Positions 17,941 to 63,099 of a stretch of DNA of 64,000 nt are shown here, piece by piece. The notes under the pieces are model-generated. The model saw nothing but the letters and a program-made list of their open reading frames with translations. It made no database searches and was not told the DNA's origin. Origin of the DNA: a virus; IMG/VR virus record IMGVR_UViG_3300044635_002180, positions 1-64,000 of that record; one strand, written 5' to 3'. How positions within the stretch are numbered: position 1 is the first letter of the stretch; every line of letters starts with the position of its first letter. The translations under genes and the position numbers were made by a program.

Positions 17941-17947
17941 ATAAATA
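17941..17947 (+). promoter_or_regulatory. late promoter, rightward
   Basis: ATAAATA, 9 nt before the endolysin ATG at 17957; spacing is longer than the 5 nt typical of this genome. The 90 nt before it are AT-rich with a weak ATAATAA/TTATTAT inverted repeat. Confidence 0.6.
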
Positions 17948-17956
17948 TATTTATTT

Positions 17957-18715
17957 ATGAGCTTTAATGATGTTGGTAAAGTACAGACATTTAATGAATT
18001 TGCAAAAACCCTACAAGCAAAGCGGCCACCTGCATGGGCTACCAGCATTACTCTACACCATACTGCATCTCCCTCACTCACTCAACGACCTAGAGGTTTT
18101 ACAATAAAACATATAGAAAATATGCGCGATTTTTACAGGTCCCTGGGGTGGAGGAGAGGGCCACACCTTTTTATAGACGAGGATCAGATATGGCATATGA
18201 CTCCTTTGATGGAGAGAGGTGTTCATGCTGTTTCTTTCAACTCAAGAGCCATTGGCATTGAGGTATTGGGTGATTATGATGATGAAGATCCATTTACAGG
18301 CAGAGGGTTGCAATGCTGGCACCTTGCTGCAAAAACCACTGCATTGCTATTAAATTGGCTTGGTGCTGAGATGAACGAATCAACCATCTTGTTTCACCGA
18401 GATGATCCTAAAACCAGCAAGACATGCCCAGGTTCCAAAATTAAAAAAGATTGGTTCTTCAATTTAATTTCAAAAGATCAAAGTTCTGTTGATGCATGTG
18501 AGCCGCAATTTTTAATCAAAAGCAATTGTGATGCTGTGGTGGATTACGTAGTCAAACACAAAGGTTACTCTCAAAAGGAAGCAGCAAAGCTATTATCCAG
18601 AAAAAACAATTTGTTCTTTTTTGGCAATGACTGGCTAGAGGGTGCCTTTTATGATAAATCTGCAGGTGCCACCATTGCACCCATTGCAGAGTTGCAACAA
18701 ATTAAGAACAAATAG
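17957..18715 (+). CDS. N-acetylmuramoyl-L-alanine amidase (endolysin)
   Basis: 252 residues. Residues about 25-165 form an amidase-2/PGRP domain: ITLHHT (H34/H35), RGVH around 87-90, FHRD (H147) and TCPG (C157) give the zinc-ligand set known from T7 lysozyme. It cuts the bond between MurNAc and the stem peptide. The region from about 185 to 252 is a separate small helical domain, perhaps for wall binding. No signal peptide, so release through a holin is expected. Follows the holin and spanin candidates and has its own late promoter. Confidence 0.92.
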   Translation: MSFNDVGKVQTFNEFAKTLQAKRPPAWATSITLHHTASPSLTQRPRGFTIKHIENMRDFYRSLGWRRGPHLFIDEDQIWHMTPLMERGVHAVSFNSRAIGIEVLGDYDDEDPFTGRGLQCWHLAAKTTALLLNWLGAEMNESTILFHRDDPKTSKTCPGSKIKKDWFFNLISKDQSSVDACEPQFLIKSNCDAVVDYVVKHKGYSQKEAAKLLSRKNNLFFFGNDWLEGAFYDKSAGATIAPIAELQQIKNK

Positions 18716-18743
18716 TTGACTGTTTGCAATGATACACTATAAT
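18716..18743 (+). promoter_or_regulatory. early promoter, rightward
   Basis: TTGACT (18716-18721), 16-nt spacer, TATAAT (18738-18743), then 6 nt to the kinase ATG at 18750. It starts 1 nt after the endolysin stop. Confidence 0.8.
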
Positions 18744-18749
18744 TGGTGT

Positions 18750-19304
18750 ATGAAGAAACAGAAAATTATTTTGACGAGAGGTTTGCCTGCAAGTGGCAAG
18801 AGTACCTGGAGCATGGAGTTTGTAAAGAACTCTAATGGCAAGGCTAAGCGAGTAAATAAAGATTTGCTCCGTGAGATGATTGATGCTGGAGTTTACTCCA
18901 AGCCTAATGAGCAGATGATCCTTGCTGCTCGAGATGCTCTGGTTGATACGTGGCTTGCTAATGATATTGAAACCATCATTGTTGATGATACCAACTTTGA
19001 GGAAAAACATTTTGAACGCATGAAGGAAATTGCTGATCAACAACGATACAAACACGAATGCAAATACCTTACTACAGACATCAATATTGAATATAAAGAC
19101 TTCCTGGATGTACCTCTTGAAGATTGTTTGCATCGCGATTCTTTGAGACCTAAACCTGTTGGTGAAAAGGTCATCAAGAGTATGCATCAACGTTATATTC
19201 TACCAACTATCAAGGATAACACATTTACAAACATCAAAAATGCAGGCGTTGATAACTGGCAAGGCTATGATTATGCTCGCGAACTCAAACAAGAAGCATC
19301 ATGA
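18750..19304 (+). CDS. 5'-polynucleotide kinase (T4 Pnk kinase domain)
   Basis: 184 residues from the ATG at 18750; an in-frame ATG at 18729 falls in the promoter. P-loop GLPASGKST at 11-19, RVNKD at 34-38 with D38 equivalent to the general-base aspartate of T4 Pnk, and a VDDTNF strand. It phosphorylates 5'-OH ends of RNA or DNA. The 3'-phosphatase domain of T4 Pnkp is absent; the HAD protein at 2625 could replace it. With RNA ligase 1 (9140) this points to tRNA repair. Confidence 0.88.
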   Translation: MKKQKIILTRGLPASGKSTWSMEFVKNSNGKAKRVNKDLLREMIDAGVYSKPNEQMILAARDALVDTWLANDIETIIVDDTNFEEKHFERMKEIADQQRYKHECKYLTTDINIEYKDFLDVPLEDCLHRDSLRPKPVGEKVIKSMHQRYILPTIKDNTFTNIKNAGVDNWQGYDYARELKQEAS

Positions 19305-19666
19305 ACTTAAAAGATTACACAACAGAACAACTACTTGCTGAATTAAAAAAACGAAAAGTTTCTAGTGATGAAATAAGTTTTAAAATGCAAAAAGTAGAAG
19401 GTGCAAAATGGAGTGATTTGACTCTTGTTTATACCATTGAAAAGACAGTCTTTACAAATAAAGAATATCTAAAAATAGCACCTTTTTACAAAGGAGTTTT
19501 TTGCTACGAAGATCTTGGACGAGCTGTTGACAATCTGTTGCCATCTTGTTTGTCAGAATCAGAAGAGTGCATTTATGAGTATGAAGGCGATCCACAAACA
19601 GGCATTTCATATCTTCAAAATTTGGGATTCAAAATGAAAAGAGATGATGAATTTTTCGAATATTAA
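19301..19666 (+). CDS. hypothetical protein
   Basis: 121 residues, starts MNLKDYTTEQLLAELKKR, a common opening of small phage proteins. No recognised domain. ATGA overlap with the kinase gene. Confidence 0.55.
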   Translation: MNLKDYTTEQLLAELKKRKVSSDEISFKMQKVEGAKWSDLTLVYTIEKTVFTNKEYLKIAPFYKGVFCYEDLGRAVDNLLPSCLSESEECIYEYEGDPQTGISYLQNLGFKMKRDDEFFEY

Positions 19667-19692
19667 AACGTTGCCCTGCAAAATACAAGAAA

Positions 19693-19761
19693 ATGAATAA
19701 ACTAACAATTTTTGCAAACGGTGAACATCACAGCATTGACGAAGCACTAAAAATACTATGA
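19693..19761 (+). CDS. possible 22-residue peptide
   Basis: Reads MNKLTIFANGEHHSIDEALK and ends IL; its stop overlaps the next ATG (ATGA), the coupling style of this region. May be a real leader gene or chance. Confidence 0.35.
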   Translation: MNKLTIFANGEHHSIDEALKIL

Positions 19762-19958
19762 AAAAACTATCTCTTGAGGAAGGTCATCTTGTTTTGCGTA
19801 ACCTTGACGGAACTCTTTGTTGGAGTCGTCATTGGGTTGATATGATTGGTTCATACCAAGGCAATAATGATGGTGGTGGCTATATTGAAATCTTCATCGA
19901 AGGAACCCTTCATCAAAAATCAAAATATCCAGAAGAGGAAGGAAAATATGAACTTTAA
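19758..19958 (+). CDS. small hypothetical protein
   Basis: 66 residues, beta-rich, with a Gly-rich loop (NNDGGGY). Unknown function. Overlaps neighbours at both ends. Confidence 0.5.
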   Translation: MKKLSLEEGHLVLRNLDGTLCWSRHWVDMIGSYQGNNDGGGYIEIFIEGTLHQKSKYPEEEGKYEL

Positions 19959-20235
19959 AGAAACAAAATTCGCATATCGTCACAAGCCAACAGGCAAGTG
20001 GGTTAGATTATATACAGGTTTTTTTGATAATAAACCTTACATGGATTTTCATCATGAAAAATTCCATCCTGAAATGCTTAGTAATAAAAAACCCATTAAA
20101 AAAGATTTGCTTCGAAGCACTATGAATGGTGAAAGATATGCTGCTCAAAACTTTCTTGAGTTTGAGCTTGTGGAAGTTGAAGTCGAATATAAGATTAAAC
20201 AATCAGGTGCTTGCAAAAACCCAAACACACTTTAA
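19948..20235 (+). CDS. small hypothetical protein
   Basis: 95 residues from the ATG at 19948, which overlaps the previous gene by 11 nt. Basic, rich in Lys, Phe and His; no recognised domain. The promoter of the next gene lies in its 3' end. Confidence 0.5.
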   Translation: MNFKETKFAYRHKPTGKWVRLYTGFFDNKPYMDFHHEKFHPEMLSNKKPIKKDLLRSTMNGERYAAQNFLEFELVEVEVEYKIKQSGACKNPNTL

Positions 20236-20238
20236 AAT
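20211..20238 (+). promoter_or_regulatory. early promoter, rightward
   Basis: TTGCAA (20211-20216), 16-nt spacer, TAAAAT (20233-20238), then 5 nt to the ATG at 20244. Confidence 0.55.
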
Positions 20239-20243
20239 ACATT

Positions 20244-20798
20244 ATGGCACACTACGATACAGCACCAGAGGAAATCATTAATCTCATCAACGACACCATT
20301 GAAGAGTTTCACCCAGAACTTGTAGAAGCACAAGTTACCATTGATGCAATGCTTGCTTATGATGACAAGGGAGGATTTCCAGTAAAAGCAGCAGGTTATC
20401 CAGCTCTTGCTGCAATCAAAATTACTTCTTTGAAGAACCGCGTCAAAGGCATGGCTGATGCAGAAATCACCATTGATGCAGATGCATTCAAAGGCATGAA
20501 CAGTGATCAGCAAAAAGCATTGATTGATCATGAATTGTATCATTTGATTGTTGCAAGAGACAAAGAAGACAACATCAAAACAGATGATGCCAATCGGCCT
20601 AAATTGAGAATTCGCAAGCATGATCATCAAATGGGCTGGTTCAAAGCCATTGCCATCAGACACAAGCAAAATTCTCCTGAAGTTTATCAGGCAACATTGC
20701 TGTGGGATAGTGATGCTCCCATCTTTTTTGCCAAACAAGTTGAAAGTATTGCAAAAGATGTTACATTGCAACATGTCACACAAGAGACCAATACTTAA
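20244..20798 (+). CDS. putative phage zinc metallopeptidase
   Basis: 184 residues from the ATG at 20244. DHELYH carries the HExxH zinc motif (H96, E97, H100), followed by a KLRIRKHDHQMGWF segment typical of a putative metallopeptidase family found in many phages. Substrate unknown. No signal peptide, so cytoplasmic action is likely. Confidence 0.75.
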   Translation: MAHYDTAPEEIINLINDTIEEFHPELVEAQVTIDAMLAYDDKGGFPVKAAGYPALAAIKITSLKNRVKGMADAEITIDADAFKGMNSDQQKALIDHELYHLIVARDKEDNIKTDDANRPKLRIRKHDHQMGWFKAIAIRHKQNSPEVYQATLLWDSDAPIFFAKQVESIAKDVTLQHVTQETNT

Positions 20799-21390
20799 AC
20801 TCAATGCAGCGTTCTTTCCACTTGCCACAAGCTCCTGGACTGACATTGTAGTCAATATTTTTTCTGGGGCAGCGCATCCATTAGACATTTGGTATGCTCA
20901 AAATGAAGATGGTACCTATGATGAAACAACTGTTGAATACTTCAATGTAGTTAAAAATTGGAAAGAATGGGCTTCATTGCCTATTCGTTGCATTGATGAT
21001 TATGTGCACACCACATCTGGTCCTGTTCGCTTGCCCAGTGTTGTTATAGCTTCTCGTTACAACAAGGTGAAGTACAAGACTGTGCAGTTTCCTACCAAGC
21101 AAAACATCTTCAAGAGAGACAAATACACTTGCGGTTATTCTGGCCGCAAGTTGCAAAAGAATGAATTGAGCGTAGATCACATTTTGCCCATTAGTCGTGG
21201 GGGTGGTAATACCTGGGAGAATTTGATCACTTGCTGCAAGTCTGTGAATACGTTCAAGGACAATAGAACTCCAACAGAATGTGGTTTAAAATTGCTTTGG
21301 AAACCTGCAAAGCCTTCTAATGGTATTGAGAGCCTTGTGTTTGACAACATGCGCGATGATTGGAATATGTTTTTAGGGTCAATGAAATGA
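20773..21390 (+). CDS. HNH endonuclease
   Basis: 205 residues from the ATG at 20773, overlapping the metallopeptidase by 26 nt. The nuclease core is SVDHILPISRGGGNTWENL (133-151): D135-H136 and N150 form the HNH centre. C120 and C154/C155 may support a metal site, but the usual two CxxC knuckles are incomplete. The N-terminal 100 residues are phage-specific. It may be a homing nuclease or a packaging-associated one; isolation from the terminase favours homing. Confidence 0.85.
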   Translation: MSHKRPILKLNAAFFPLATSSWTDIVVNIFSGAAHPLDIWYAQNEDGTYDETTVEYFNVVKNWKEWASLPIRCIDDYVHTTSGPVRLPSVVIASRYNKVKYKTVQFPTKQNIFKRDKYTCGYSGRKLQKNELSVDHILPISRGGGNTWENLITCCKSVNTFKDNRTPTECGLKLLWKPAKPSNGIESLVFDNMRDDWNMFLGSMK

Positions 21391-21983
21391 GCAATAGATT
21401 ATATAGTGATATTAAAATGAAAAAAGATTTATGGTATAAAACTCCACACGCATTGTCATGGGACGATTGGGAGAGCTGGCGCGTTAATGTGCGCCAACAA
21501 TATCCAGTTCAATACTTCTTTCGAGAGGAGGTGAGCCTATGTTTTAGCATCATGTGGCGCAGAATCAAAGATTTCAAATATAAGATCAAATGTTTCTTCT
21601 TTCCTAAGCATCAAGAAATTCGTAAAACAATTCCCCGCACATGGATGGATCTCTGCGATCTCGTTGTTGATCTCAACTTCGCCATGATTCTCAGCTTTAA
21701 GAAAGAGGCTGATGAATCTTTGGTTGATTGGGATGGAACTGTAGAACATCGTAAGTTTAAAAACTGGCTTGCTGCTGCTGCTGACTGGATTGAAAAGGCT
21801 CGCCCAGCTTTGGAGAAGCAAAAAGATAATTCCTACCCACCTCTGGGACCGTTTAAAGAACGGTCAGGAAAGACATATGAGGAGCTTTATGGTGAAGTTA
21901 ATCGCATAGAAAAACTGATCAACGAAACTGACTCCAATATTCTCAAACAGATGATTGAGTACCGAGATTACATGTGGACATAA
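21387..21983 (+). CDS. conserved phage protein
   Basis: 198 residues from the ATG at 21387 (ATGA overlap). Contains TPHALSWDDWESW, YPVQYFFRE and IPRTWMDL, a set I recognise from a conserved phage family of unknown function. Mostly helical with many Trp and charged residues. Confidence 0.6.
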   Translation: MSNRLYSDIKMKKDLWYKTPHALSWDDWESWRVNVRQQYPVQYFFREEVSLCFSIMWRRIKDFKYKIKCFFFPKHQEIRKTIPRTWMDLCDLVVDLNFAMILSFKKEADESLVDWDGTVEHRKFKNWLAAAADWIEKARPALEKQKDNSYPPLGPFKERSGKTYEELYGEVNRIEKLINETDSNILKQMIEYRDYMWT

Positions 21984-21985
21984 TT

Positions 21986-22249
21986 ATGGAAAACCGAAAA
22001 TGCACTTGCGATTGGTGTTCAATTCGCTCACCTTTGTGTGAAAAAATTCGTTTCTTGCTACAAGATAATAAAGAAGAACAAAAGGCATTTGATGATATGA
22101 TCAATGATCTGATGATGTCAGAGACTGATGCAGTTTATTGGAAAGACAAATATTATGGCACATGGCCAAGCGATACTGTGGAAGATATTCAACATCACAT
22201 TGAAAGACTACAAGCTCGCATAAAAGAATTACAGAATGAAAATCAATAA
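21986..22249 (+). CDS. small hypothetical protein with Cys motif
   Basis: 87 residues. N-terminal CTCDWC plus a later Cys may form a metal knuckle; the C-terminal half is a coiled coil. Unknown function. Begins 3 nt after the previous stop. Confidence 0.5.
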   Translation: MENRKCTCDWCSIRSPLCEKIRFLLQDNKEEQKAFDDMINDLMMSETDAVYWKDKYYGTWPSDTVEDIQHHIERLQARIKELQNENQ

Positions 22250-22394
22250 AGAAAAACTCTACAAACTCTACATGCAAGAGGTGGAGGCTATTTGTGAAGT
22301 GTGTGATTGGAAAACTAATTTCAGCGCAGAAGAATGCGTAAACATTGTATCTTATCTTTTAGAAGAGAATCCAGATTTAATTAATTATGAATAA
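22236..22394 (+). CDS. small hypothetical protein
   Basis: 52 residues (MKINKEKLYKLYMQEVEAIC and onward), helical with three cysteines. Overlaps the previous gene by 14 nt and the next by 8 nt, fitting the local packing. Confidence 0.5.
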   Translation: MKINKEKLYKLYMQEVEAICEVCDWKTNFSAEECVNIVSYLLEENPDLINYE

Positions 22395-22557
22395 TAAAGT
22401 AGAACTCATAGGCGTTTATGGATCAGACGATATTCATGCATGCTCTGCATGGACTTCAACTGGTAGAGACATTACAGAAGAACAGCGCAATTTGCAGTTA
22501 AAATCCAACATGGAAGCTGCTACAAAATTTTTTAAAGATAAAAATATTAGATCATGA
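22387..22557 (+). CDS. small protein, possible ThyX N-terminal fragment
   Basis: 56 residues. VELIGVYGSDDIHACSAWTS followed by TEEQR recalls the N-terminal strand-helix of flavin-dependent thymidylate synthase, but everything after it (including the flavin-binding region) is absent. It could be a degenerate fragment or an unrelated small protein. ATGA overlap with the phosphatase gene. Confidence 0.45.
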   Translation: MNNKVELIGVYGSDDIHACSAWTSTGRDITEEQRNLQLKSNMEAATKFFKDKNIRS

Positions 22558-22988
22558 ACACAGTTAATCACTACACAGACTTTGCCAATGCAGAAAAATA
22601 CGCCAAAGATTATGATGCCATCATTTCTCTTGGTCATTTTCTTCCAGAACAATTTCGCGAAGGTAAAAAATATTTGTTTTTAGATTTTGAAGATGAAACA
22701 TTTGGCTCCATTGCAACCAATCCCGAAGATGCAAAGCATGCGCCCACTGAAGGACATGTTCGTCAAATTATTGAGTTTGTGCGCGAGCTTGCTCCCATTG
22801 ATAAGCTGCTGATTCATTGCTTTGCTGGTTACAGCAGAAGCCCTGCTGGGGTTTTAATTGCAAAATGTGAGCGAGATGGTAAAACTCCTCATCAAGCAAA
22901 AGACGAACTCAAAGATGCTAGAATTCCAGACAAGCTGATACCTCATCCAAATGATATTATGCTGCATCAATATCTAATGATCAAATGA
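22554..22988 (+). CDS. dual-specificity/tyrosine phosphatase-like protein
   Basis: 144 residues. The P-loop HCFAGYSRSP (H88, C89, R95) is the cysteine-phosphatase signature HCxxGxSRS, and D45 or D47 could act as general acid. Expected to remove phosphate from proteins, nucleotides or RNA 5' ends. Cytoplasmic. Followed closely by a metallophosphoesterase gene. Confidence 0.85.
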   Translation: MNTVNHYTDFANAEKYAKDYDAIISLGHFLPEQFREGKKYLFLDFEDETFGSIATNPEDAKHAPTEGHVRQIIEFVRELAPIDKLLIHCFAGYSRSPAGVLIAKCERDGKTPHQAKDELKDARIPDKLIPHPNDIMLHQYLMIK

Positions 22989-22989
22989 T

Positions 22990-23184
22990 ATGAAAATTGG
23001 ACCAAGAGAATACAATGATCAAGAGACTGCTATAATTGGGAGTTGTAAGATGCAAATTCAATCTCTTCAATCAGAAATTGAAGAACACTGGCAAATACTC
23101 ATCAAGCAGTTGAATGTACCTGATAAAATTCCAAATCCAGAAACGGACCATCTTTGGGATTATATCATGAATGATTTCATTTGA
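22990..23184 (+). CDS. small hypothetical protein
   Basis: 64 residues, helical, no known motif. Starts 1 nt after the phosphatase stop; the next promoter begins within its last codons. Confidence 0.5.
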   Translation: MKIGPREYNDQETAIIGSCKMQIQSLQSEIEEHWQILIKQLNVPDKIPNPETDHLWDYIMNDFI

Positions 23185-23208
23185 TTTTTACAGGAAATAT
23201 CTTATACT
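23181..23208 (+). promoter_or_regulatory. early promoter, rightward
   Basis: TTGATT (23181-23186), 16-nt spacer, TATACT (23203-23208), then 6 nt to the ATG at 23215. Confidence 0.7.
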
Positions 23209-23214
23209 ATAAGA

Positions 23215-23928
23215 ATGAAAGAAAAAGATAAAATAATAATGCTTGGTGATATTCATGGCGAATTTGGTAAATTCCGGTGGTTTCTAAGAAATATTAGCGA
23301 CGCTTATATCATACAAGTGGGTGACTTTGGCGCTGGTTTTCACAAAGAAAATTATTACAAGACTGAGTTTAATCAACTCAATGATAAGCTCGAAGATACG
23401 AATTGCCATGTATACGCAATTCGAGGCAACCATGATAATCCTGCATGGTTCAAAGAATCTAACAACCCGTTCGATTTAAAGAATATCACATTGCTGCAAG
23501 ATTATTCAGAGTTGAATCTACTTGGCAAAAGCATCTTGCTTGTTGGTGGTGCCATAAGCATTGACCGAAGATTCCGTGTACCTGACAAAAGTTATTGGCA
23601 TGATGAAAGTTTTGTCCTCAAGCTAGACGATGAATTTCCATACAAGGATCGCCAGTATGATGTTGTTGTAACTCACACTCGACCAGGTGTATGTGGTTCT
23701 TTCAAAGGATTTTCCAACATCAAAGATTGGATTGATCAAGATGCAGATCTCAAGAATGATTTGATTGAAGAAAGTCAAGCATTAGACTATCTGTACGAAC
23801 ACACTAAACCCAAGCATTGGATGTACGGACATTTTCATTGTGGTGATGTAACTACGTATGAAGATACAATCTTTAGATGCTTAGACATTGATGAATTATA
23901 TGAACACAACACCCTCATACTTCCATAA
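23215..23928 (+). CDS. calcineurin-like metallophosphoesterase
   Basis: 237 residues with all the family metal motifs: GDIHG (11-15), GDFG (36-39), GNHD (71-74), THTRP (153-157) and GHFH (205-208). Such enzymes cut phosphomonoesters or diesters in nucleotides, RNA or proteins; substrate unknown here. Own promoter 6 nt before the ATG. Confidence 0.9.
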   Translation: MKEKDKIIMLGDIHGEFGKFRWFLRNISDAYIIQVGDFGAGFHKENYYKTEFNQLNDKLEDTNCHVYAIRGNHDNPAWFKESNNPFDLKNITLLQDYSELNLLGKSILLVGGAISIDRRFRVPDKSYWHDESFVLKLDDEFPYKDRQYDVVVTHTRPGVCGSFKGFSNIKDWIDQDADLKNDLIEESQALDYLYEHTKPKHWMYGHFHCGDVTTYEDTIFRCLDIDELYEHNTLILP

Positions 23929-24121
23929 ACATGCTGTTTTTATCAGCAGAATTTCAGATACCATTTGCTTTGGCCACACCGGCATAAGCTTCACTGATGC
24001 TTCATGCGGTAGTGGTTATTGGTTTCACCCAGATGGCATGGAACAAGTAATTCATGTACAACCAACTGAAGTTTGGTTTGATGAAGACGCTTATATCATT
24101 GGACCACCCAATTATAAATAA
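23900..24121 (+). CDS. small hypothetical protein
   Basis: 73 residues from the ATG at 23900, overlapping the phosphoesterase end by 29 nt. Beta-rich with several aromatic residues. Unknown function. Confidence 0.5.
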   Translation: MNTTPSYFHKHAVFISRISDTICFGHTGISFTDASCGSGYWFHPDGMEQVIHVQPTEVWFDEDAYIIGPPNYK

Positions 24122-24126
24122 AATTT

Positions 24127-24327
24127 ATGAACGAAGAAATGCTTAAAAATGAAATTGCACAATTGCAAACTGATCTCGAGATTATGCGCAAGAAAAAAGA
24201 ATACTATGAACAATTTTATTCTCCTTGCTTAGGCATTTATTATGGTCGCGTTGCAATGAGTGATGATGCCATCATTGACAACATTAAAAAGATCGAAAAG
24301 CTTCTGCGTGAACCAAACTTCAATTAA
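24127..24327 (+). CDS. small coiled-coil protein
   Basis: 66 residues; the first 28 form a coiled coil (heptads of Leu/Ile), then a Cys/Tyr-rich loop and a second helix. Unknown function. An ATAAATA lies 6 nt upstream, but it falls across the previous stop and I do not count it as a promoter. Confidence 0.5.
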   Translation: MNEEMLKNEIAQLQTDLEIMRKKKEYYEQFYSPCLGIYYGRVAMSDDAIIDNIKKIEKLLREPNFN

Positions 24328-24331
24328 CATT

Positions 24332-24640
24332 ATGACAGAAAAAGAATTCGTAATTTGGCTGCATGGCTTTTTAGAAATAAGCAGCGTTAAAACGCTGGAC
24401 GAAAATCAACTGCAGGTGATCAAAGATCATCTTAATACTTTTTTCGTCAAGGTTACACCAAACCGTGAGAAAGATGATGTATCAGAAGAGCAGAGAGAAA
24501 TGCGTATACCACCTGTTTATCCACATGCTAACTGGCCTACCATTCCAAAAGCTCCAGGTAATACGCCACCAAAATTTTCAGAAATTTGGTGCTGTGATAA
24601 TACCACCACACAATATCCCAACAATCAAACATACTGCTAA
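24332..24640 (+). CDS. conserved phage protein
   Basis: 102 residues from the ATG at 24332. The opening MTEKEFVIWLHGFLE and later LQVIKDHLNTF match a widespread small phage family of unknown function. Pro-rich C-terminus. Confidence 0.6.
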   Translation: MTEKEFVIWLHGFLEISSVKTLDENQLQVIKDHLNTFFVKVTPNREKDDVSEEQREMRIPPVYPHANWPTIPKAPGNTPPKFSEIWCCDNTTTQYPNNQTYC

Positions 24641-24641
24641 C

Positions 24642-25247: not shown

Positions 25248-25270
25248 TAACATTCAACCTCTGGTAAAAT

Positions 25271-25417
25271 ATGTTTGAAAGATTTGACTCTGGCCCTGGT
25301 TGGAGAGATGAAACTGATGAAAATCAGCCACCGCCTCCTTGGTATATGCAAGTTCTAGGTTTGGTTATAGTTGCGGCAGTCATTTGGATTGTTTACGAAG
25401 GAATTAAAAGTCTATAA
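25271..25417 (+). CDS. small membrane protein
   Basis: 48 residues. Polar N-terminus with PPPPW, then one membrane helix (about 26-42, VLGLVIVAAVIWIV). Ends 2 nt before the next ATG. Confidence 0.55.
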   Translation: MFERFDSGPGWRDETDENQPPPPWYMQVLGLVIVAAVIWIVYEGIKSL

Positions 25418-25419
25418 TT

Positions 25420-25901: not shown

Positions 25902-25902
25902 T

Positions 25903-26205: not shown

Positions 26206-26209
26206 TTAT

Positions 26210-26560: not shown

Positions 26561-26565
26561 ATATT

Positions 26566-27162: not shown

Positions 27163-27170
27163 AAAAGCAA

Positions 27171-27353
27171 ATGAATATTAATACAAAAATAAGTGAATTA
27201 GAAGAACATGCTGTTTATGGTGTGACTTGTAAATCTTTTGCAATATTACTAAAAGATAACAACATCTCTAAGAAAGAAATTATAGAATATTATAAACATG
27301 ATAGAGAATTTCTTGAGTTAGCTGATTTAGATGATATTTTTAAAAATGAATAG
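27171..27353 (+). CDS. small hypothetical protein
   Basis: 60 residues, helical, acidic C-terminus; unknown. Overlaps the YopX-like gene by 8 nt. Confidence 0.5.
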   Translation: MNINTKISELEEHAVYGVTCKSFAILLKDNNISKKEIIEYYKHDREFLELADLDDIFKNE

Positions 27354-28349: not shown

Positions 28350-28356
28350 ATAAATA
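28350..28356 (+). promoter_or_regulatory. late promoter, rightward
   Basis: ATAAATA exactly 5 nt before the ATG at 28362; an out-of-frame ATG lies in between at 28358. Confidence 0.75.
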
Positions 28357-28361
28357 CATGC

Positions 28362-38476: not shown

Positions 38477-38483
38477 CTAAATA
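38477..38483 (+). promoter_or_regulatory. late promoter, rightward
   Basis: CTAAATA exactly 5 nt before the ATG at 38489, directly after the previous stop codon. Confidence 0.6.
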
Positions 38484-42041: not shown

Positions 42042-42048
42042 TATTTAT
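42042..42048 (-). promoter_or_regulatory. late promoter, leftward
   Basis: ATAAATA on the minus strand, exactly 5 nt before the ATG at 42036. Confidence 0.7.
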
Positions 42049-43640: not shown

Positions 43641-43647
43641 TATTTAT
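43641..43647 (-). promoter_or_regulatory. late promoter, leftward
   Basis: ATAAATA 5 nt before the ATG at 43635; the TAA inside it is the stop codon of the upstream gene. Confidence 0.75.
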
Positions 43648-48156: not shown

Positions 48157-48161
48157 ATCAT

Positions 48162-48168
48162 TATTTAA
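48162..48168 (-). promoter_or_regulatory. late promoter, leftward
   Basis: TTAAATA exactly 5 nt before the GTG at 48156. Divergent from the site at 48181. Confidence 0.55.
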
Positions 48169-48180: not shown

Positions 48181-48187
48181 ATAAATA
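48181..48187 (+). promoter_or_regulatory. late promoter, rightward
   Basis: ATAAATA 6 nt before the ATG at 48194. Confidence 0.7.
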
Positions 48188-54060: not shown

Positions 54061-54061
54061 A

Positions 54062-55204: not shown

Positions 55205-55209
55205 GCATA

Positions 55210-55216
55210 TATTTAT
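55210..55216 (-). promoter_or_regulatory. late promoter, leftward
   Basis: ATAAATA exactly 5 nt before the ATG at 55204. Confidence 0.75.
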
Positions 55217-55236
55217 GTATGTAATGCAAAATCATC

Positions 55237-57135
55237 TCATGCATAACCAGCTGCTAACATTTGCTGTCTTACCTGCGTAGCAGTGTATTGCAAAGGAAAT
55301 ACATTATAATCTGTTGCTTGCATGTCTTTAGTTTGTTTTTGTGCAGCAGAAGAACTAAATCCAATTGAATTTACTGTTTTTTCTATTCTCAGCAATATGT
55401 CGTTTGTAATGGTTATGGCTCTAATTTGTGCATCTGCTTTAGAATCTTGTGTCTTTTTTAAAGCTTCAAACAGACCTTTTAAGCCTTCATTATTCAATTG
55501 TGTAGCAGCTGCAACATTTGTTTTGTCATTAACCTTTAAATTAGGCGCTGTTTCAGCATCAGCAGCATTTGATGCTTGAGTTTCTTCAGTTGTTGAAAAG
55601 TAACCTTCAACTGAGTTCCACATTGATTTGGCCCATTCAACTGGTTTGGATACAATTTTCTTAACAAAAGATTTCATTGCTTCAATTTTAGTTGCAAGTG
55701 CGTTTTTGATGGTGCCGATAAAGTCAAACTTCTCAATTTCAAATTTCTCTGTTGTAATTGGTGTTGCAGCTTCTTGTTCTCCAGAGGTTATTAATGATGT
55801 TACCCATTCATACACAGATGCAGCAGCATCAAATACAGCCCCTGCAGGTGATAATATGCCTTTGCCAATTAATTTGAGACCATCAACATAGTTTCCATTC
55901 TTGATCATTCCAATGCCATCAATGATGTCATGCACACCTTTGAACAAAGGCATTTTTTTAATTTTCTCCCAAATGCTTGAAAATTTTTCGCCAATATTAT
56001 CAAAGAAATTAGCAAGCCCTAAACTTTTATTTTGAGCAGCTTTGTCTTTTTCTGTGTATGTAAAATCTCTGTACAGACTATAGAAGTCAGCAATTATGCC
56101 AAACCCTGGTATTGCACCAGCTAATTCCAACAAAGTGCCAAGGTAATCGCCCTCCTTAAATTTTTCATATGCAAAATATAAATTTATTATGTCACCCAAT
56201 CCAGGTACAAGTTTAAAAAGCTTTAGACCTTTTTTGAGTATATCACCAAACATGCCTCCTAGACTCTTCAAAAAAGTCTTTATAGCATCTGTTCCAGGTA
56301 TGCTTTTAATTAGATCTTTGCCCATATCAAAAACACCAGATAGACTTTTGAAAATTTTATCCTTTGCCTCCACCAATCCTTTTTTAATTGAATCAGGGAG
56401 AAGATCAAAAAGCGTTTCTGGCAATTTAAGAACTGTATCACCCATTGATTTAAGAGCTTTAAAACCTTTGTCAAAAACAAACGATATTAATGATGTTATT
56501 TTGCCCAATGTCTTTTTAACCATTTTTTCACCAAGCTTAACAGCTAATTTTCCTATTTGAGACAGTCCACTTCCTATGTCACTGCCAAAAGCCAGCAAAC
56601 CTCCACCAAGCAACAGACCAAGTCCACTTAGCAGAGATGCCCAATCAAATGATTGCTTGTTATCTGCTTTTTTGTTGGAAAAGACATCAACCAAGTCTTT
56701 GATAACATCTTTGTCAATGCCTGCAATATAAACCTTCTTAGCATCATCCCTCTGAGTTAGCCTGTTGATATCTTCTTGTTCTGCTTGTTGTTTTTGTGCT
56801 TCTGCAGTCTCGTCTGAAGATTTTGTCAATACATCAAGCTTATCAAACATTTTTGTGCTTGCATCTTTTTGCTCTTTGCGTTCTTTTTCTTTATCAGATT
56901 TAAAAGCATCATTGAATTTCTTGATTAAGTTGTCAATGCTCTTGTTGTCTAGTGAAACAATTTCACCTTGTCCTTTGGATTTGTTGTCATTGTCTTGCTG
57001 ATCATCCCGGCTTATGATGCTTGGTGCAGCTTCGTTAACAGCATTTTTTGACTGCTTGACATTGCTAATGTTACGCAGCTCATCTACAACTTCTTTTAGT
57101 TGCTTGATAAAATTATCCAAAAATACTTGTTCCAC
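55237..57135 (-). CDS. tape measure protein
   Basis: 632 residues. Charged helical N-terminus (1-160), then a Gly/Leu-rich hydrophobic stretch (LLSGLGLLLGGGLLAFGSDI) and further hydrophobic helices alternating with amphipathic ones to about 450, and a Lys/Ala/Thr tail. This layout and the position next to tube and hub genes fit the tape measure. Start is GTG at 57135, exactly 5 nt after a late promoter; an ATG at 57139 is out of frame. Confidence 0.75.
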   Translation of the reverse strand: MEQVFLDNFIKQLKEVVDELRNISNVKQSKNAVNEAAPSIISRDDQQDNDNKSKGQGEIVSLDNKSIDNLIKKFNDAFKSDKEKERKEQKDASTKMFDKLDVLTKSSDETAEAQKQQAEQEDINRLTQRDDAKKVYIAGIDKDVIKDLVDVFSNKKADNKQSFDWASLLSGLGLLLGGGLLAFGSDIGSGLSQIGKLAVKLGEKMVKKTLGKITSLISFVFDKGFKALKSMGDTVLKLPETLFDLLPDSIKKGLVEAKDKIFKSLSGVFDMGKDLIKSIPGTDAIKTFLKSLGGMFGDILKKGLKLFKLVPGLGDIINLYFAYEKFKEGDYLGTLLELAGAIPGFGIIADFYSLYRDFTYTEKDKAAQNKSLGLANFFDNIGEKFSSIWEKIKKMPLFKGVHDIIDGIGMIKNGNYVDGLKLIGKGILSPAGAVFDAAASVYEWVTSLITSGEQEAATPITTEKFEIEKFDFIGTIKNALATKIEAMKSFVKKIVSKPVEWAKSMWNSVEGYFSTTEETQASNAADAETAPNLKVNDKTNVAAATQLNNEGLKGLFEALKKTQDSKADAQIRAITITNDILLRIEKTVNSIGFSSSAAQKQTKDMQATDYNVFPLQYTATQVRQQMLAAGYA

Positions 57136-57140
57136 TCATG

Positions 57141-57147
57141 TATTTAT
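57141..57147 (-). promoter_or_regulatory. late promoter, leftward
   Basis: ATAAATA exactly 5 nt before the GTG at 57135. Confidence 0.75.
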
Positions 57148-57160
57148 GGTTTATAAACTG

Positions 57161-57871
57161 TTAGAATAGTGGAGTCTGTATATCAAGATTTTTGCCGTTA
57201 AATGCTTGTTCAATTACATCTTTTGCTTTTGTAATAAACTTTGCAACAGCATTATTGACTGATGCAGGCATTTGTTCTGCAATCTTTACATAAGAGCCAA
57301 TGTCAGCAACATCATCAAAACACACACTTTCATTTCGGATAGTTAATTTTTTAATGTGTTTAACAATTTCCAATACAAAGTAATCAGATGCAAGCTCTGA
57401 AGCACTGCGTGATGCATTTTTGTTGCTGTTGATGAACCAATTGTTTATATCAGAATCGCGTTGCAGATCAGGCAGCTGCATCTCTACCATTATAGCTTCA
57501 CCAAATGTTGCTGTAGCTTGTTGCAACTTTTCAACATCAATTGTTTTAGCGAAGGCATTTATTTCTTGAATTTGCTCTTTTGTTTCTTCTTCCTCTGCTT
57601 TAAGATTCAACAATATAAACTCCCGATCAAATGTTGATACATCATTGCTGCTATCATCACAGCAGTTGTCTGTAATGATGCTGTTGAGTGCATTTATAAT
57701 GCGAATATTATCCAAAGGGTTGTTGTTGATGTTGCCAATGATTTTTTTCTGCTGGAGCACACTAATGGGTCTGAATTTTTTTGTTTTCTTGGCCATTGGA
57801 ACGTAGATATCAACAATGGATTCATTGTTGATTGCTTCAAGATCTTTAAAAATTGCATCAAACTTATTCAT
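57161..57871 (-). CDS. putative baseplate hub assembly protein (gp26/gp51-like)
   Basis: 236 residues. The N-terminal VPMAKKTKKFRPISVLQQKK resembles the start of the T4 baseplate-assembly family that includes gp26. Helical, acidic middle. It overlaps the next gene by 8 nt. Position between tube-like protein and tape measure matches T4 hub-assembly genes. Confidence 0.55.
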   Translation of the reverse strand: MNKFDAIFKDLEAINNESIVDIYVPMAKKTKKFRPISVLQQKKIIGNINNNPLDNIRIINALNSIITDNCCDDSSNDVSTFDREFILLNLKAEEEETKEQIQEINAFAKTIDVEKLQQATATFGEAIMVEMQLPDLQRDSDINNWFINSNKNASRSASELASDYFVLEIVKHIKKLTIRNESVCFDDVADIGSYVKIAEQMPASVNNAVAKFITKAKDVIEQAFNGKNLDIQTPLF

Positions 57872-58718
57872 GTGTATTAAGCATACTTAGTGCATTGTTG
57901 CTGTTTTTCAATGCTTCGTTTTGTTGTGCTTGCTCCTCATTATAAAATGACATGAAGAGTTTAGCATCTGCTGGAGTTAAATTATTATAATCACTGCATG
58001 ATAGATGCAGCTTTGTTAAGCAAAAGTATTTTTGTCTAAAGTAATTGAACAAATCTTCTCTAAAAATAATTTTTAATATTTCAAATATGCTTGAGTTAAA
58101 GGGGTTTATGCTGATGGCATCAAATCCTAATGAAGTTACTTGTGGTATGAAATTTATTTTAGCATATTTTTGCTGCTCTCTACCAATATAATCAGCAAGT
58201 TTACGCAAAATATTGGCATTCACAATGTTTAACAATTTATCCTTTTGTTGAGCATTGAGATCATTGAGTAACAGCCCATTTATGCCATACAGTGAATTAA
58301 TGAGTGCATTATCTGCATTTAAATGCAGCTTTGTTGGTGCATTGAACTCAAAACAAATGTTGTCAATTGTTATTGTTTGTTTTTCCACATCAACTTGATT
58401 GAGTTGATCAATTATGCTTTCCAAATCAATGTTTATAGCAGAATTTTCTGCATTTACTAGTTTTAGTGTGCTGCTGTAACTTATGCTCTTTATTTTGCAC
58501 AGTATTGCGAACTTATCTATAATTGTCAAGTGGTTGCTTGCTAAATTTTCATTAAAGATGCAGCATTTTTGTATAATGTAATCAAAATACTTTTCTATCT
58601 CCTCATTGTTATCTTCCAACAAGAATTTTTGCAAGTTTTCATGCAATTCATTGGTGATGCTCTTTACAGAAATGATTGTTTTGCAACTTGGCAATGTTAT
58701 TTTTGATGTAAATGTCAT
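57864..58718 (-). CDS. putative baseplate hub assembly protein
   Basis: 284 residues, mostly helical with many Asn and Leu. ITLPSCKTIISVKSITNELH at the start resembles the T4 gp26-type family opening. Likely a chaperone-like hub assembly factor by position; the assignment is tentative. Confidence 0.5.
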   Translation of the reverse strand: MTFTSKITLPSCKTIISVKSITNELHENLQKFLLEDNNEEIEKYFDYIIQKCCIFNENLASNHLTIIDKFAILCKIKSISYSSTLKLVNAENSAINIDLESIIDQLNQVDVEKQTITIDNICFEFNAPTKLHLNADNALINSLYGINGLLLNDLNAQQKDKLLNIVNANILRKLADYIGREQQKYAKINFIPQVTSLGFDAISINPFNSSIFEILKIIFREDLFNYFRQKYFCLTKLHLSCSDYNNLTPADAKLFMSFYNEEQAQQNEALKNSNNALSMLNTHE

Positions 58719-59410
58719 GTATTATTAACATTTACACTATAATTATCAAAACACCACGTGACAGATCGCATTTCAGGTGTTCCTTGATCTTCATTATACG
58801 AATATTTTTTGCCATCCACACCAAATGGTGCGCAGTTGTAAAAATTATACACCTTTCTAATGGGCCTAAAAGCATTGTTGTCATAAGGTGCAACAGGGGT
58901 GTGCTTTTGTCGACCAAAAGATATCAATTGTATTCTAGGAACTCGTACACGCTCATTTGCATTTTGATAAGCAAAATATCCATTGTAGCTGCTAACAATT
59001 ACCCAAGGACGAATTACAAAATCAACAAAATCAGAATTTGTTTCACGAAAAGTTGTGGCAATGCTCTTGCCTGCAAATGCATCACGTGCTCCAGCAACAC
59101 CAGGCTTTGTAAAGCCACCAAAATTATAGTTTCCAGCTGGAGATATATTGTATCTATCATCTGGAAGTGTTACTGAATCTACAAAAAAACATCCAACCTC
59201 AGACGTGCTCTGCAACTGTTGCTTGGTTAAATCATCATAAGCATCAGAAACCAACCAATCATTTGTTCTTATAGCTTCAAGCTGAGCTATTTGCTGCTTT
59301 ACAGTTTGAGGAAAGCCATGTATAATTAATACCCACTGTGAATTGAGTGCTAAATTATACTCGTAACGCTCGAGTAAAGTAAGATAAGATTCTCTAGGTG
59401 ATTGTGCCAC
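58715..59410 (-). CDS. tail-tube-fold baseplate protein
   Basis: 231 residues with a GTG start at 59410, exactly 5 nt after a late promoter. FRETNSDFVDFVIRPWVIVS and the strong beta pattern match tail-tube-like proteins (the gp19/gp54 fold). Together with the 59422 gene it makes a pair of tube-like proteins; this larger one probably belongs to the tube-baseplate junction. Confidence 0.6.
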   Translation of the reverse strand: MAQSPRESYLTLLERYEYNLALNSQWVLIIHGFPQTVKQQIAQLEAIRTNDWLVSDAYDDLTKQQLQSTSEVGCFFVDSVTLPDDRYNISPAGNYNFGGFTKPGVAGARDAFAGKSIATTFRETNSDFVDFVIRPWVIVSSYNGYFAYQNANERVRVPRIQLISFGRQKHTPVAPYDNNAFRPIRKVYNFYNCAPFGVDGKKYSYNEDQGTPEMRSVTWCFDNYSVNVNNT

Positions 59411-59415
59411 CTAAT

Positions 59416-59422
59416 TATTTAT
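59416..59422 (-). promoter_or_regulatory. late promoter, leftward
   Basis: ATAAATA exactly 5 nt before the GTG at 59410; it overlaps the gp19 stop codon by 1 nt. Confidence 0.75.
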
Positions 59423-59970
59423 TATGCTGGTGCGTTCTCTTCAAAGAAGTGATAAGATATAGTCGCATCAAAGAATACTGGCTGACCTGTACCTTCTGCC
59501 ATGTTGTATTGAATTTGACCCACTTGGCGAATACCTGTACCAACTAATTTAAATGTTGATATTGGCTCAAGAGCTTTGTTGAGCTGCACCAATGTAATGG
59601 TGTTGGCACGAGAAGCAATGTTGTAATCACCTGTGCTTGTTGCATCATCAAAAACGCGACGAGATTCAGCTAAAAACTTATTTCTAAGTTGGGAATCTGC
59701 ATCACAATAAAAATTGAGCGTATAACCTTCAGCACCAGGGTATGTTGCTACACCTGCAATGTTGAACGGCAAACCCATGAATTTAGTCTGCACATTGGTA
59801 ATGCCACGTGCAGGTAGTGTTGCTGTTCTTGCGTAAATTAATTCACTTTCATCAAAAATAGCGCCACCAGCAAATGTAATGTTGATCACACGAAAGAGGA
59901 AGTCGCGTGAAAATTCTCTTGCAAGTGCGCGATCATAAAAATTACCAATGGTTTGATTAGTCTGTGCCAT
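59422..59970 (-). CDS. gp19: tail tube protein gp19-like
   Basis: 182 residues, similar in size to T4 gp19 (163). RDFLFRVINITF, ATLPARGITNVQTKFMGLPF and GYTLNFYCDADSQLRNKF follow the tail-tube family pattern, ending in FFDATISYHFF. Hexamers stack to form the inner tube. Late promoter 5 nt before the ATG. Confidence 0.85.
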   Translation of the reverse strand: MAQTNQTIGNFYDRALAREFSRDFLFRVINITFAGGAIFDESELIYARTATLPARGITNVQTKFMGLPFNIAGVATYPGAEGYTLNFYCDADSQLRNKFLAESRRVFDDATSTGDYNIASRANTITLVQLNKALEPISTFKLVGTGIRQVGQIQYNMAEGTGQPVFFDATISYHFFEENAPA

Positions 59971-59975
59971 GCATT

Positions 59976-59982
59976 TATTTAT
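59976..59982 (-). promoter_or_regulatory. late promoter, leftward
   Basis: ATAAATA exactly 5 nt before the gp19 ATG at 59970. Confidence 0.8.
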
Positions 59983-60006
59983 TCATCACCGATGCAAATA
60001 GTTGAT

Positions 60007-60861
60007 TTATTTTGTTGCTTGCTTAGCAATATTTTGGGCATTGCGATACATTCTCATGGCAACGCCCTTGTCTTGTGCTTTGGGTTTGCTGGCTGCAATG
60101 TAATCATCATTGTCAAGATATTCCTTTGCTGCTTGCTTGTAAAGACCTTTGTTAATCAATTCAATTGTTTTTGGTGAGCCAGACAAATCACCTCTAAAAA
60201 TACCATTGAGAATAGTAATTTTAAAATCATCACTGTATTCTTTAAACTTAGGAAATAAACGCTGAGCTATTTGCACTTTGCTGTTGATATCTACATCAAG
60301 CAAGTCATTTATTTCTTTGTCTGACAATGTTTTGCCTTTATACTTTTTTAATTCGCTTTTTGATTTAATCAAATGCCCATATCCAATGGTCCATTTGCCT
60401 TTGGTATCTTTGTATAGTCGTGATTTTTTTCCTTCATCTTGTTTGAGCATTTGTCTTGCTTTGTTGTAAAACTCCTGACTCAATTGTTTGTTGGCTGCAT
60501 TAGGAACCTGTTGTTTTTTTGCAGCTGCATCAGCATAGGATTGTTTTTCTTTTGCTGTGGGTGGCTTCGGCCTATAGTTTTTCCAAGCAGCATTAATTTT
60601 AGATGCAATGTTTTGCACCTTTGGAGCATTTTGTTGCTGCACAGCACTGTTCTCAATTTGCTCCACCTGTTCAGGCGTTTTTTGCTGTAGGATCTGCTCA
60701 ACTTTTTGTTTAATTTCATTCAATTTGGGTACAATGTAACCTACATCAACGATGCCAAGCATTAATGCAGTAGCAATCAAAGCTTTTGGCGAATTAATGA
60801 TGTTTTTTATTGATTCACTTACAAGTTGTTGTGAGCATGCTTCATTGAATGGGGACTTCAT
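60007..60861 (-). CDS. virion lysozyme (GH24, T4 lysozyme type)
   Basis: 284 residues. One membrane-like segment (about 28-45), a Gln-rich coiled linker, then a T4-lysozyme domain from about 130: E143 in DEG, D152 in YKDTKG and T158 in WTIGYGH keep exactly the spacing of T4 lysozyme E11, D20 and T26. It cleaves the glycan backbone of murein. A late promoter and location among tail genes suggest a virion enzyme for DNA entry rather than the lysis enzyme, which is the amidase at 17957. Confidence 0.85.
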   Translation of the reverse strand: MKSPFNEACSQQLVSESIKNIINSPKALIATALMLGIVDVGYIVPKLNEIKQKVEQILQQKTPEQVEQIENSAVQQQNAPKVQNIASKINAAWKNYRPKPPTAKEKQSYADAAAKKQQVPNAANKQLSQEFYNKARQMLKQDEGKKSRLYKDTKGKWTIGYGHLIKSKSELKKYKGKTLSDKEINDLLDVDINSKVQIAQRLFPKFKEYSDDFKITILNGIFRGDLSGSPKTIELINKGLYKQAAKEYLDNDDYIAASKPKAQDKGVAMRMYRNAQNIAKQATK

Positions 60862-60866
60862 CTTGT

Positions 60867-60873
60867 TATTTAT
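60867..60873 (-). promoter_or_regulatory. late promoter, leftward
   Basis: ATAAATA exactly 5 nt before the ATG at 60861; its TAA is the stop codon of the gp4 gene. Confidence 0.8.
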
Positions 60874-61313
60874 GGCAAATGCTTTTCAGTGATGATGAGA
60901 AACTCATAACCAATGCTTTGTGCATACTTTTTTGCAGCTTCCCACTTGCTATTGTTGATGAGCCACGTTGCATTCTCATACAAAATGGTTGATTCCTTTT
61001 TGTTGCCATGCTTTGAAGGTGGTTTTGTTTGACATTCTGGCTTTATTTCAACCAAATATTTTTTTATTGCATCACCTTCTTTAATTACAACAACATTGTC
61101 AATGAAATACCTGTGCATTTTGCGATCAATGGGGCTCATGTATGGAACAACAACAGACTCACTACTCCATTTGAGTACATTGGGATTTTTATCACACCAC
61201 CTCATGAATCGCAACTCCATGCCTGATCTATAAAAAGGCATGCCATTGCCAATGTACTTTTGTGCATTAACAGGTTTGTAGAAATTTTGCTTGTATTGTT
61301 GCTTGGCTTTCAT
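60870..61313 (-). CDS. gp4: head completion nuclease gp4-like
   Basis: 147 residues, matching T4 gp4 (about 150). FYRSGMELRFMRWCD (E33), HRYFIDN (D72) and LVEIKPECQ (E89, K91) form the TnsA-like endonuclease centre of this family. In T4, gp4 (also called gp50/65) acts on packaged heads before tail joining. Late promoter 6 nt before the ATG. Confidence 0.88.
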   Translation of the reverse strand: MKAKQQYKQNFYKPVNAQKYIGNGMPFYRSGMELRFMRWCDKNPNVLKWSSESVVVPYMSPIDRKMHRYFIDNVVVIKEGDAIKKYLVEIKPECQTKPPSKHGNKKESTILYENATWLINNSKWEAAKKYAQSIGYEFLIITEKHLP

Positions 61314-63087
61314 TGTGTGTATTTATATACTCAAATACCATGTGTCCGCAGTCCCAGATTCTTCTCCAACCCCGCTGCATCATAATCTGCAATTCAGTTA
61401 ATTTAGCATCATAGCCCTGTTTTACAAGTTTATGTTTTTGGAAATTAGATCTGTGCATCACTGTTTTTGTATCAGTGTACCAATAAGCAGCATTTGTCGT
61501 CTTAATATGTTTAAATCCTAATGTGGTGTAAAACGAACCATCTTTGCAGTATCTTAAATCAGCATATGTTGTTACTTTTTCAACATTGTAATTTCTTAAA
61601 AAATGTTTGAACAGTTTAGATGCTCCACCAATTACAATTGTGTTGAGTTTGCAGCAAAATCTTATGAGCTCAAATGTTTTATTTCTTGTTATTTTGCGGT
61701 TACCAAACGTCATCATTGCAACCATTTCTCCGTTATGCATTAAAGCTAGGGCAATCTGCGAATTATCATTGCCTTGAATGTGATTTGCATTTAAAAAATC
61801 TTTTTTTTGCATTTTTGTTGCTATTATTACTTTGCAGTTGCGTGCATATATTCTACTCTGCAATGCATTTAATCTACTTCGCAACATTGACTTAACAATT
61901 TCTTGCTTGTTTACCCATTCATTTTCAAAAATTTGAACTAAGTGTATATTATTTTGCATGCATAGCTTGCGCTTATTCAAATGCTTACATTTATTGTGTT
62001 GCTCCTCGTCAATGTTGTTGGGAAAATTGGAACCAAAGCTATGCCACAACAACCCATGAAATTCAATGCCCACATTTTTTTGTGGTATAAACACATCAAT
62101 TTCTAATTTCTTGCTACTTGTTAAACCTTTGTAAGAATTGACAACTTCTAAACTACAATCTTGCTGCAAAAAGTTCGCTACTTCTATTTCCAGCCTTGAT
62201 GTACCTGTAGCTACATTGTTGCATTTAGCACAAAAAACATCTTTCCAACGAGCATTTGTTAAGCGACGAAGCAGTATTGATCCACAGGCATTACATTTGA
62301 GGTGATACTCCTGTTGCTGATGGCTATTTACATCATTTAAAACAGAAAAATTTTGTTGCTCAACAGCATTTTTTATAATTTTTAATTTTGCTTTGTTTTT
62401 GTGCTGTTGTGAGCTTGAAGCATTATATCCCCTCAAAAAATTACAGTACTTTGCTTTTATGCTTGCATCATAACAACAAACAGCTGGTTGAGTGTTGTGA
62501 TATAGCAAGTAGAAGCGTTCACTCCAATTAATGCTATCAATGTCTTCGTATAAAAGGTGGTGCTGTGTGTGTTGTAGTATGCTGCAGCAGACATCAACAT
62601 TTTCTTTTAATATAGCAGTGTTAATAAACGCATGCAGTCTTCCATAATTTGTCTTTATTAATCTATCCTGTATAAATTCAAAACACTCACCACACTGCTT
62701 CAATATATATTCTTTGTTTTTGTAGATGTTAATGAAGTTTTGTTTGATACTATTTTTGGAAGCTTTTAGTTTTGCTGATAATTTATGTGCGTCAACTGTT
62801 TTTAGTCTTGCCCCATTTTGCTTGCCTGATGCAATTGCAAATCTGTGCTTATTATTTAGCCATGACAGCGGCAGATTTGTTATTGGACAAATGGGTTGTT
62901 GTGTGATGTTGTTGGTGATGCAATATATGCGCGCAGCAATGCAGGCTCTATCATCTAAAAAATTTGTTGCTTTGATTATATCATTATATAGTTGTGATTT
63001 TTTGAACCACCCCTGCCTTATTACAGCAGCATTTAATTTACCACTTTTGTTGTAGAGCTGTGTCTTAATTTCGTCACATATTTGCAT
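61267..63087 (-). CDS. Vsr-fold homing endonuclease
   Basis: 606 residues from the ATG at 63087. A Cys4 knuckle (CNACGS then CAKCN, about 270-295) precedes a Vsr/EDxHD-type nuclease: LEIDVFIPQKNVGIEFHGLLW with following LNKRKLCMQN and IFENEW (about 325-390). The C-terminal 190 residues (LNANHIQGND, ALALMHNGEMVAMMTFGN, FYTTLGFKH) resemble an acetyltransferase-like module seen in related phage proteins. It sits between sheath and gp4 and overlaps gp4 by 47 nt, so its end has grown over the gp4 promoter. It carries its own ATAAATA site. Confidence 0.8.
   Translation of the reverse strand: MQICDEIKTQLYNKSGKLNAAVIRQGWFKKSQLYNDIIKATNFLDDRACIAARIYCITNNITQQPICPITNLPLSWLNNKHRFAIASGKQNGARLKTVDAHKLSAKLKASKNSIKQNFINIYKNKEYILKQCGECFEFIQDRLIKTNYGRLHAFINTAILKENVDVCCSILQHTQHHLLYEDIDSINWSERFYLLYHNTQPAVCCYDASIKAKYCNFLRGYNASSSQQHKNKAKLKIIKNAVEQQNFSVLNDVNSHQQQEYHLKCNACGSILLRRLTNARWKDVFCAKCNNVATGTSRLEIEVANFLQQDCSLEVVNSYKGLTSSKKLEIDVFIPQKNVGIEFHGLLWHSFGSNFPNNIDEEQHNKCKHLNKRKLCMQNNIHLVQIFENEWVNKQEIVKSMLRSRLNALQSRIYARNCKVIIATKMQKKDFLNANHIQGNDNSQIALALMHNGEMVAMMTFGNRKITRNKTFELIRFCCKLNTIVIGGASKLFKHFLRNYNVEKVTTYADLRYCKDGSFYTTLGFKHIKTTNAAYWYTDTKTVMHRSNFQKHKLVKQGYDAKLTELQIMMQRGWRRIWDCGHMVFEYINTHNESQATIQAKFLQTC
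61320..61326 (-). promoter_or_regulatory. late promoter, leftward
   Basis: ATAAATA (preceded by T, giving the full T4-type TATAAATA) 6 nt before the ATG at 61313. It lies inside the 3' end of the endonuclease gene. Confidence 0.75.
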
Positions 63088-63092
63088 ATTAC

Positions 63093-63099
63093 TATTTAT
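63093..63099 (-). promoter_or_regulatory. late promoter, leftward
   Basis: ATAAATA exactly 5 nt before the ATG at 63087, which fixes that start. Confidence 0.65.

Follow-up and report, generated by a model that had tools for sequence, protein, structure and literature searches.

How does a T4-type phage begin its late messages when the promoter box stands so close to the gene that the start codon falls where the RNA itself should start? T4 is the textbook example of phage late transcription, and its late messages carry leaders with a Shine-Dalgarno (SD) sequence. The DNA analysed here (the window, bases 1-64,000 of a 116,215-base IMG/VR virus record, termed G000 in our genome comparison) contains ATAAATA-type boxes a few nucleotides before virion genes, which the initial annotation read as late promoters of leaderless messages, with the transcription start on the start codon.

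The record represents a distant T4-superfamily myovirus, in which T4-type sheath, terminase, gp6 wedge, gp41 helicase and UvsX genes are recognizable, as are a DNA polymerase and a primase. Its closest isolate terminase is that of Synechococcus phage B23 (37%), and a tRNA search of the record found none. The gene calls behind all counts given below are simple ones. In the terminase large subunit (locus L009, 3210-5978, record positions 66210-68978, minus strand), an additional segment, at about residues 93-417, matches LAGLIDADG/homing endonucleases; it is missing from the relatives G001, G004, G006 and G007 and is likely an intein. The terminase gene of G002, G004 and G007 shows a second interruption at about residues 521-616. 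A group I intron was considered for the interrupted terminase genes of the relatives, but the G007 pieces scanned gave no Rfam match.

Late boxes and their distance to the start codon

The late boxes of the window, with the starts behind them, are:

1044-1050, plus strand: ATAAATA, 5 nt before ATG 1056
17941-17947, plus strand: ATAAATA, 9 nt before ATG 17957 of an amidase/endolysin-like gene
24114-24120, plus strand: ATAAATA, 6 nt before ATG 24127 of a 66-aa ORF
28350-28356, plus strand: ATAAATA, 5 nt before ATG 28362 (1003 aa); box and spacing are the same in the G001 and G002 orthologues
38477-38483, plus strand: variant CTAAATA, 5 nt before ATG 38489
42042-42048, minus strand: ATAAATA, 5 nt before ATG 42036
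43641-43647, minus strand: ATAAATA, 5 nt before ATG 43635
48162-48168, minus strand: variant TTAAATA, 5 nt before GTG 48156 of a baseplate wedge subunit
48181-48187, plus strand: ATAAATA, 6 nt before ATG 48194; its divergent partner is the box at 48162-48168
55210-55216, minus strand: ATAAATA, 5 nt before ATG 55204; the spacing of 5 is kept in G001, G002, G006 and G007
57141-57147, minus strand: ATAAATA, 5 nt before GTG 57135, with an out-of-frame ATG at 57139 in the spacer
59416-59422, minus strand: ATAAATA, 5 nt before GTG 59410; GTG and spacing are kept in G001, G002, G006 and G007
59976-59982, minus strand: ATAAATA, 5 nt before ATG 59970 of the tail tube gene
60867-60873, minus strand: ATAAATA, 5 nt before ATG 60861 of a gene with an endolysin/tail-lysozyme-like domain
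61320-61326, minus strand: ATAAATA, 6 nt before ATG 61313 of the head closure gene
63093-63099, minus strand: ATAAATA, 5 nt before ATG 63087 of a homing/HNH-endonuclease-like gene

Every coordinate at which a box had been reported exactly 5 nt before a late start is correct. The reported total of twelve such starts comes down to 11 distinct ones, because the GTG cases had been counted twice; nine of them have a perfect ATAAATA and two a one-base variant (before 38489 and 48156), and the box before ATG 1056, also at 5 nt, had been overlooked. The remaining sites do lie 6 nt (24127, 48194, 61313) and 9 nt (17957) away. Among ATG/GTG ORFs of at least 100 aa in the window, ten start exactly 5 nt after ATAAATA, two at 6 nt, one at 8 nt and one at 9 nt, and none was found at any other spacing up to 37 nt. 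The first base of the box is relaxed at spacing 5 (NTAAATA, in the order A>T>C>G), around the core TAAATA. Baseplate wedge, tail tube, head closure, sheath and endolysin-like genes are among those with a box, together with a few non-virion genes. The homing/HNH-endonuclease-like gene with its own late box (61267-63087, minus strand) is present in G006 and G002; no orthologue was found in G001 or G007.

Could these boxes stand before starts by chance in an AT-rich genome? The word total would allow it: ATAAATA occurs 22 times in the window compared to 16.3 expected, a number reached by 13 of 100 shuffles. Position tells otherwise. The window holds 11 copies of ATAAATA-N5-RTG, whereas 200 shuffled versions average 0.75 and never exceed 5, so that the spacing survives the comparison with shuffled sequence by which the initial annotation had proposed to judge it, and the 116-kb record contains 19 matches to ATAAATA-N5-ATG compared to 0 for a reversed-pattern control. 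The pattern is also repeated in other relatives. Since the word total is near expectation and the spacing counts are far above the controls, the signal lies in the position of the boxes and not in their number; the position tests thus refute a chance origin, to which we assign a negligible probability.

The predicted transcription start

The T4 late box spans positions -13 to -6 (PMC1524935), and a spacing of 5 nt therefore puts +1, the sixth base after the box, on the start codon, in agreement with the earlier proposal. Two base features point to an RNA start at this position in the lineage as well. Immediately upstream of the start codon, 84% of 122 spacing-5 genes have a pyrimidine and only 5% an A. 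With start codons 7-9 nt downstream of the box, 27 of 44 distinct spacers retain a pyrimidine-purine step at box+5/+6, compared to 11.0 in permuted ones, and none of 20,000 permutations reached 27; the step is weak in the spacing-6 class. Because it is found at box+5/+6 even with the start 7-9 nt away, this step follows the position of the box instead of that of the start codon, and it thus behaves as an initiator-like transcription start would.

The start codons at box+5 comprise 106 ATG, 13 GTG and 1 TTG, and 81 of the 122 spacing-5 genes have no other in-frame start. An out-of-frame ATG lies within the five bases before the start in 17 of the 122 genes, above the 5.6% expected from composition. 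Of the three examples named in the initial annotation, those at 28358 and 57139 are real, and the third is located at 48161 instead of 48158. The out-of-frame spacer ATG often takes the form ATGCATG, as in the spacers 28357-28361 and 55205-55209.

For genes whose box lies 6-9 nt from the start, the predicted leaders are 1-4 nt long. The spread of start distances from 5 to 9 nt, and the ability of promoters to initiate at neighbouring bases, could speak for a related scenario, in which a real late promoter starts the RNA at mixed positions or 1-4 nt earlier than proposed here, yielding very short leaders throughout instead of truly leaderless messages. However, the distances peak sharply at 5 and are very rare at 4 or below, the -1 base is a pyrimidine in the large majority of cases, and the start codons are nearly all ATG or GTG, which makes general short leaders improbable.

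Shine-Dalgarno words and probable early promoters

Core SD words precede only 1 of 106 non-box genes in G000, which equals background, compared to 51% in T4 and 46% in the Pelagibacter myophage HTVC008M; they are at background in the lineage as a whole, as is expected of leaderless genes. Genes without a late box have a different signal in the same place: TTGA, ending 29-32 nt before the start, is combined with TANNNT, ending 5-7 nt before it. The count of TTGA-N18-20-TANNNT reaches its maximum at 5-7 nt before ATG in G000 (9, 6 and 4), G001 (19, 20 and 9) and G002 (11, 12 and 9), and no such peak was found in T4, Syn9, B23 or HTVC008M. Examples in the window are:

1027-1032, minus strand: early -10 TATTAT, with TTGA at 1051-1054, 7 nt before ATG 1019
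8171-8176, minus strand: early -10 TATTAT, with TTGA at 8196-8199, 5 nt before ATG 8165 of a ribose-phosphate pyrophosphokinase gene
10909-10914, minus strand: early -10 TATAAT, with TTGA at 10934-10937, 6 nt before ATG 10902
14718-14723, minus strand: early -10 TAACAT, with TTGA at 14743-14746, 6 nt before ATG 14711
18738-18743, plus strand: early -10 TATAAT, with TTGA at 18716-18719, 6 nt before ATG 18750
23203-23208, plus strand: early -10 TATACT, with TTGA at 23181-23184, 6 nt before ATG 23215
27335-27340, plus strand: early -10-like TATTTT, with TTGA at 27313-27316, 5 nt before ATG 27346

We infer that these promoters are early because of their sigma70-like form and the genes behind them (pyrophosphokinase, primase). 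As they end 5-7 nt before ATG, the early messages look leaderless, too. The geometry is the same as in bacterial leaderless genes, which are recognized by a TANNNT located some 12 bp upstream of the start (PMC3160421); those are genes of cellular genomes, whereas here the arrangement occurs in a T4-superfamily phage and extends to a phage late promoter. No recognized promoter stands at the start of 28 of 52 free-standing genes, which would have to be reached by read-through, by overlap or from promoters that our patterns do not recognize. A Bacteroidota-type promoter, TAnnTTTG, was also tried and rejected, as it was barely above chance and its distance was not fixed.

A lineage without SD motifs needs another start signal, and A/U-rich starts occur in non-SD bacteria. 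ATAAATA might thus be an A/U-rich translation-initiation element, contacted by a non-SD ribosome or by S1 within a normal leader, with the RNA starting further upstream. Several observations make this reading very improbable. The pyrimidine-purine step keeps its distance to the box and not to the start codon, a different motif pair takes the same register at other genes, and 17 genes, as mentioned above, have an out-of-frame ATG in their five-base spacer. The divergent starts 48156 (minus) and 48194 (plus), with only 37 nt between them, leave little room for leaders. Moreover, T4 relatives are known to use this heptamer as a promoter, mostly 12-30 nt from the start (PMC2984593, PMC1524935).

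In our preferred reading, which we hold with high confidence, T4-type late promoters are registered for leaderless or near-leaderless messages and the early promoters share this register. NTAAATA at -12 to -6 would be a T4-type late promoter, read by the host RNA polymerase together with the phage sigma factor gp55, with +1 on the first base of ATG/GTG or 1-4 nt before the start codon. The messages of late first genes would then be leaderless or nearly so and be translated without SD contact. Because late boxes and sigma70-like promoters both predict an RNA start at or beside the start codon, leaderlessness seems to concern the whole genome and would be the rule of the lineage; the earlier proposal of leaderless late genes is supported in its core and was too narrow in its limitation to them.

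Relatives, late transcription machinery and host

Searches with the sheath protein gp18 retrieved related records; among these, G001 (224.7 kb) and G002 (203.8 kb) match at about 70% gp18 identity. In G000, G001, G002, G004, G006 and G007, the box distances form a single peak at 5 nt, which declines through 9 and is nearly empty below 5. Box and spacing are conserved between orthologues and the spacer letters vary; for example, all five relatives place ATAAATA 5 nt before the tail tube gene (59970), and most of their spacer letters differ. Conservation in orthologues thus joins the 5-nt cut-off, the box-fixed pyrimidine-purine step and the lack of SD words as the fourth independent sequence test that backs the leaderless reading. 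Five further large records have 24, 22, 16, 15 and 17 boxes at 5-6 nt, compared to 3, 4, 2, 1 and 0 in the control. In G002, seven near-identical promoter copies, TTAAATATACGCATATG, are located at 262, 195216, 195871, 201662 and 203354 (plus strand) and at 182355 and 183321 (minus strand); the codons that follow are similar, as in a dispersed repeat family.

A gp18 profile search gave at least 600 stretches, of which 80 loci were kept. Among the matches listed, the gp18 tree of 93 rows contains 66 environmental rows with a box 5-8 nt before gp18, and this state clusters strongly (4 changes compared to 23.5 after shuffling). In a few gp18 relatives the box lies at 12-21 nt, and SD leaders occur in deeper ones; the deep branching order is unsure, since the tree was built by FastTree and has some long branches. 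L125, L129 and L133, inside the leaderless group, have a gp18 without box and with a G-rich, SD-like leader, and their other genes keep the 5-nt box. With six gp18 queries, no phage isolate record reached 80% coverage of any query. The close placement of the box thus appears to recur widely in a large group of environmental viruses from which no isolate has been obtained.

The T4 late promoter, TATAAATA, which depends on gp55, gp33 and gp45, shares the core box and the virion genes behind it. The late sigma factor that the initial annotation had expected is intact in the syntenic relatives G001 and G002, as proteins of 160 aa that are about 83% alike and match the PHROG late sigma family with E values of 1.5e-26 and 8e-25. 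By synteny, the G000 contig stops some 3 kb ahead of the corresponding locus, so that gp55 is seen in relatives and not on the contig, and its use by this phage is a prediction. The sliding clamp gp45 is encoded on the record itself (98692-99405; 37% to the G004 clamp, E 5e-44), and the search for the co-activator gp33 gave one weak match only (E 0.03), in G001. T4 differs in its SD leaders and in its boxes, which form no peak at 5 nt and lie mostly 12-30 nt before the start, whereas here the start codon occupies the expected +1 and SD words are absent. The late promoters of cyanophages S-PM2, Syn9 and B23, NATAAATA, have the relaxed first base and the same core (PMC2984593). However, these phages show no 5-nt peak, with counts that match the control, and in Syn9 and B23, as in T4, most boxes lie 12-30 nt upstream.

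Two cultured Pelagibacter myophages come closer. HTVC008M has a smaller peak at exactly 5 nt, formed by a subset of 9 among its 45 sites, but is otherwise SD-rich and has no early promoters in the 5-7 nt register. Its genes with a 5-nt box include those at 6280, 7562, 19456, 31132 and 49760. Mosig EXVC030M has 9 matches at 5-6 nt compared to 1 in the control. A published search for late promoters in their group had found none.

As to the host, leaderless GTG starts are used poorly in E. coli and well in mycobacteria (PMC4633059). The conservation of GTG starts, together with this host dependence, suggests a host that translates leaderless messages well, and the leaderless rule would presumably be fitted to ribosomes that accept a 5'-terminal AUG or GUG. 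The actinophage marker WhiB is absent in G000, G001, G002 and G004. Genome assemblies were also searched, and their nearest contigs share only about 30% of gp18 and are therefore too far for naming a host.

Our literature searches gave no direct report of T4-like late promoters with leaderless messages, and the group described here would, to our knowledge, be the first of the T4 type to rely on leaderless translation. We consider it likely that an uncultured branch of the T4 superfamily has abandoned 5' leaders and SD sequences genome-wide and has locked its early and its gp55-dependent late promoters to the start codon. With the T4 promoter core some 15-20 nt closer to the gene, one short sequence would define where transcription as well as translation begins. 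This reading predicts transcript ends at base level for dozens of genes, and since part of the pattern is present in cultured Pelagibacter phages, it is testable now. Better start-codon calling may be expected in a common group of environmental viruses.
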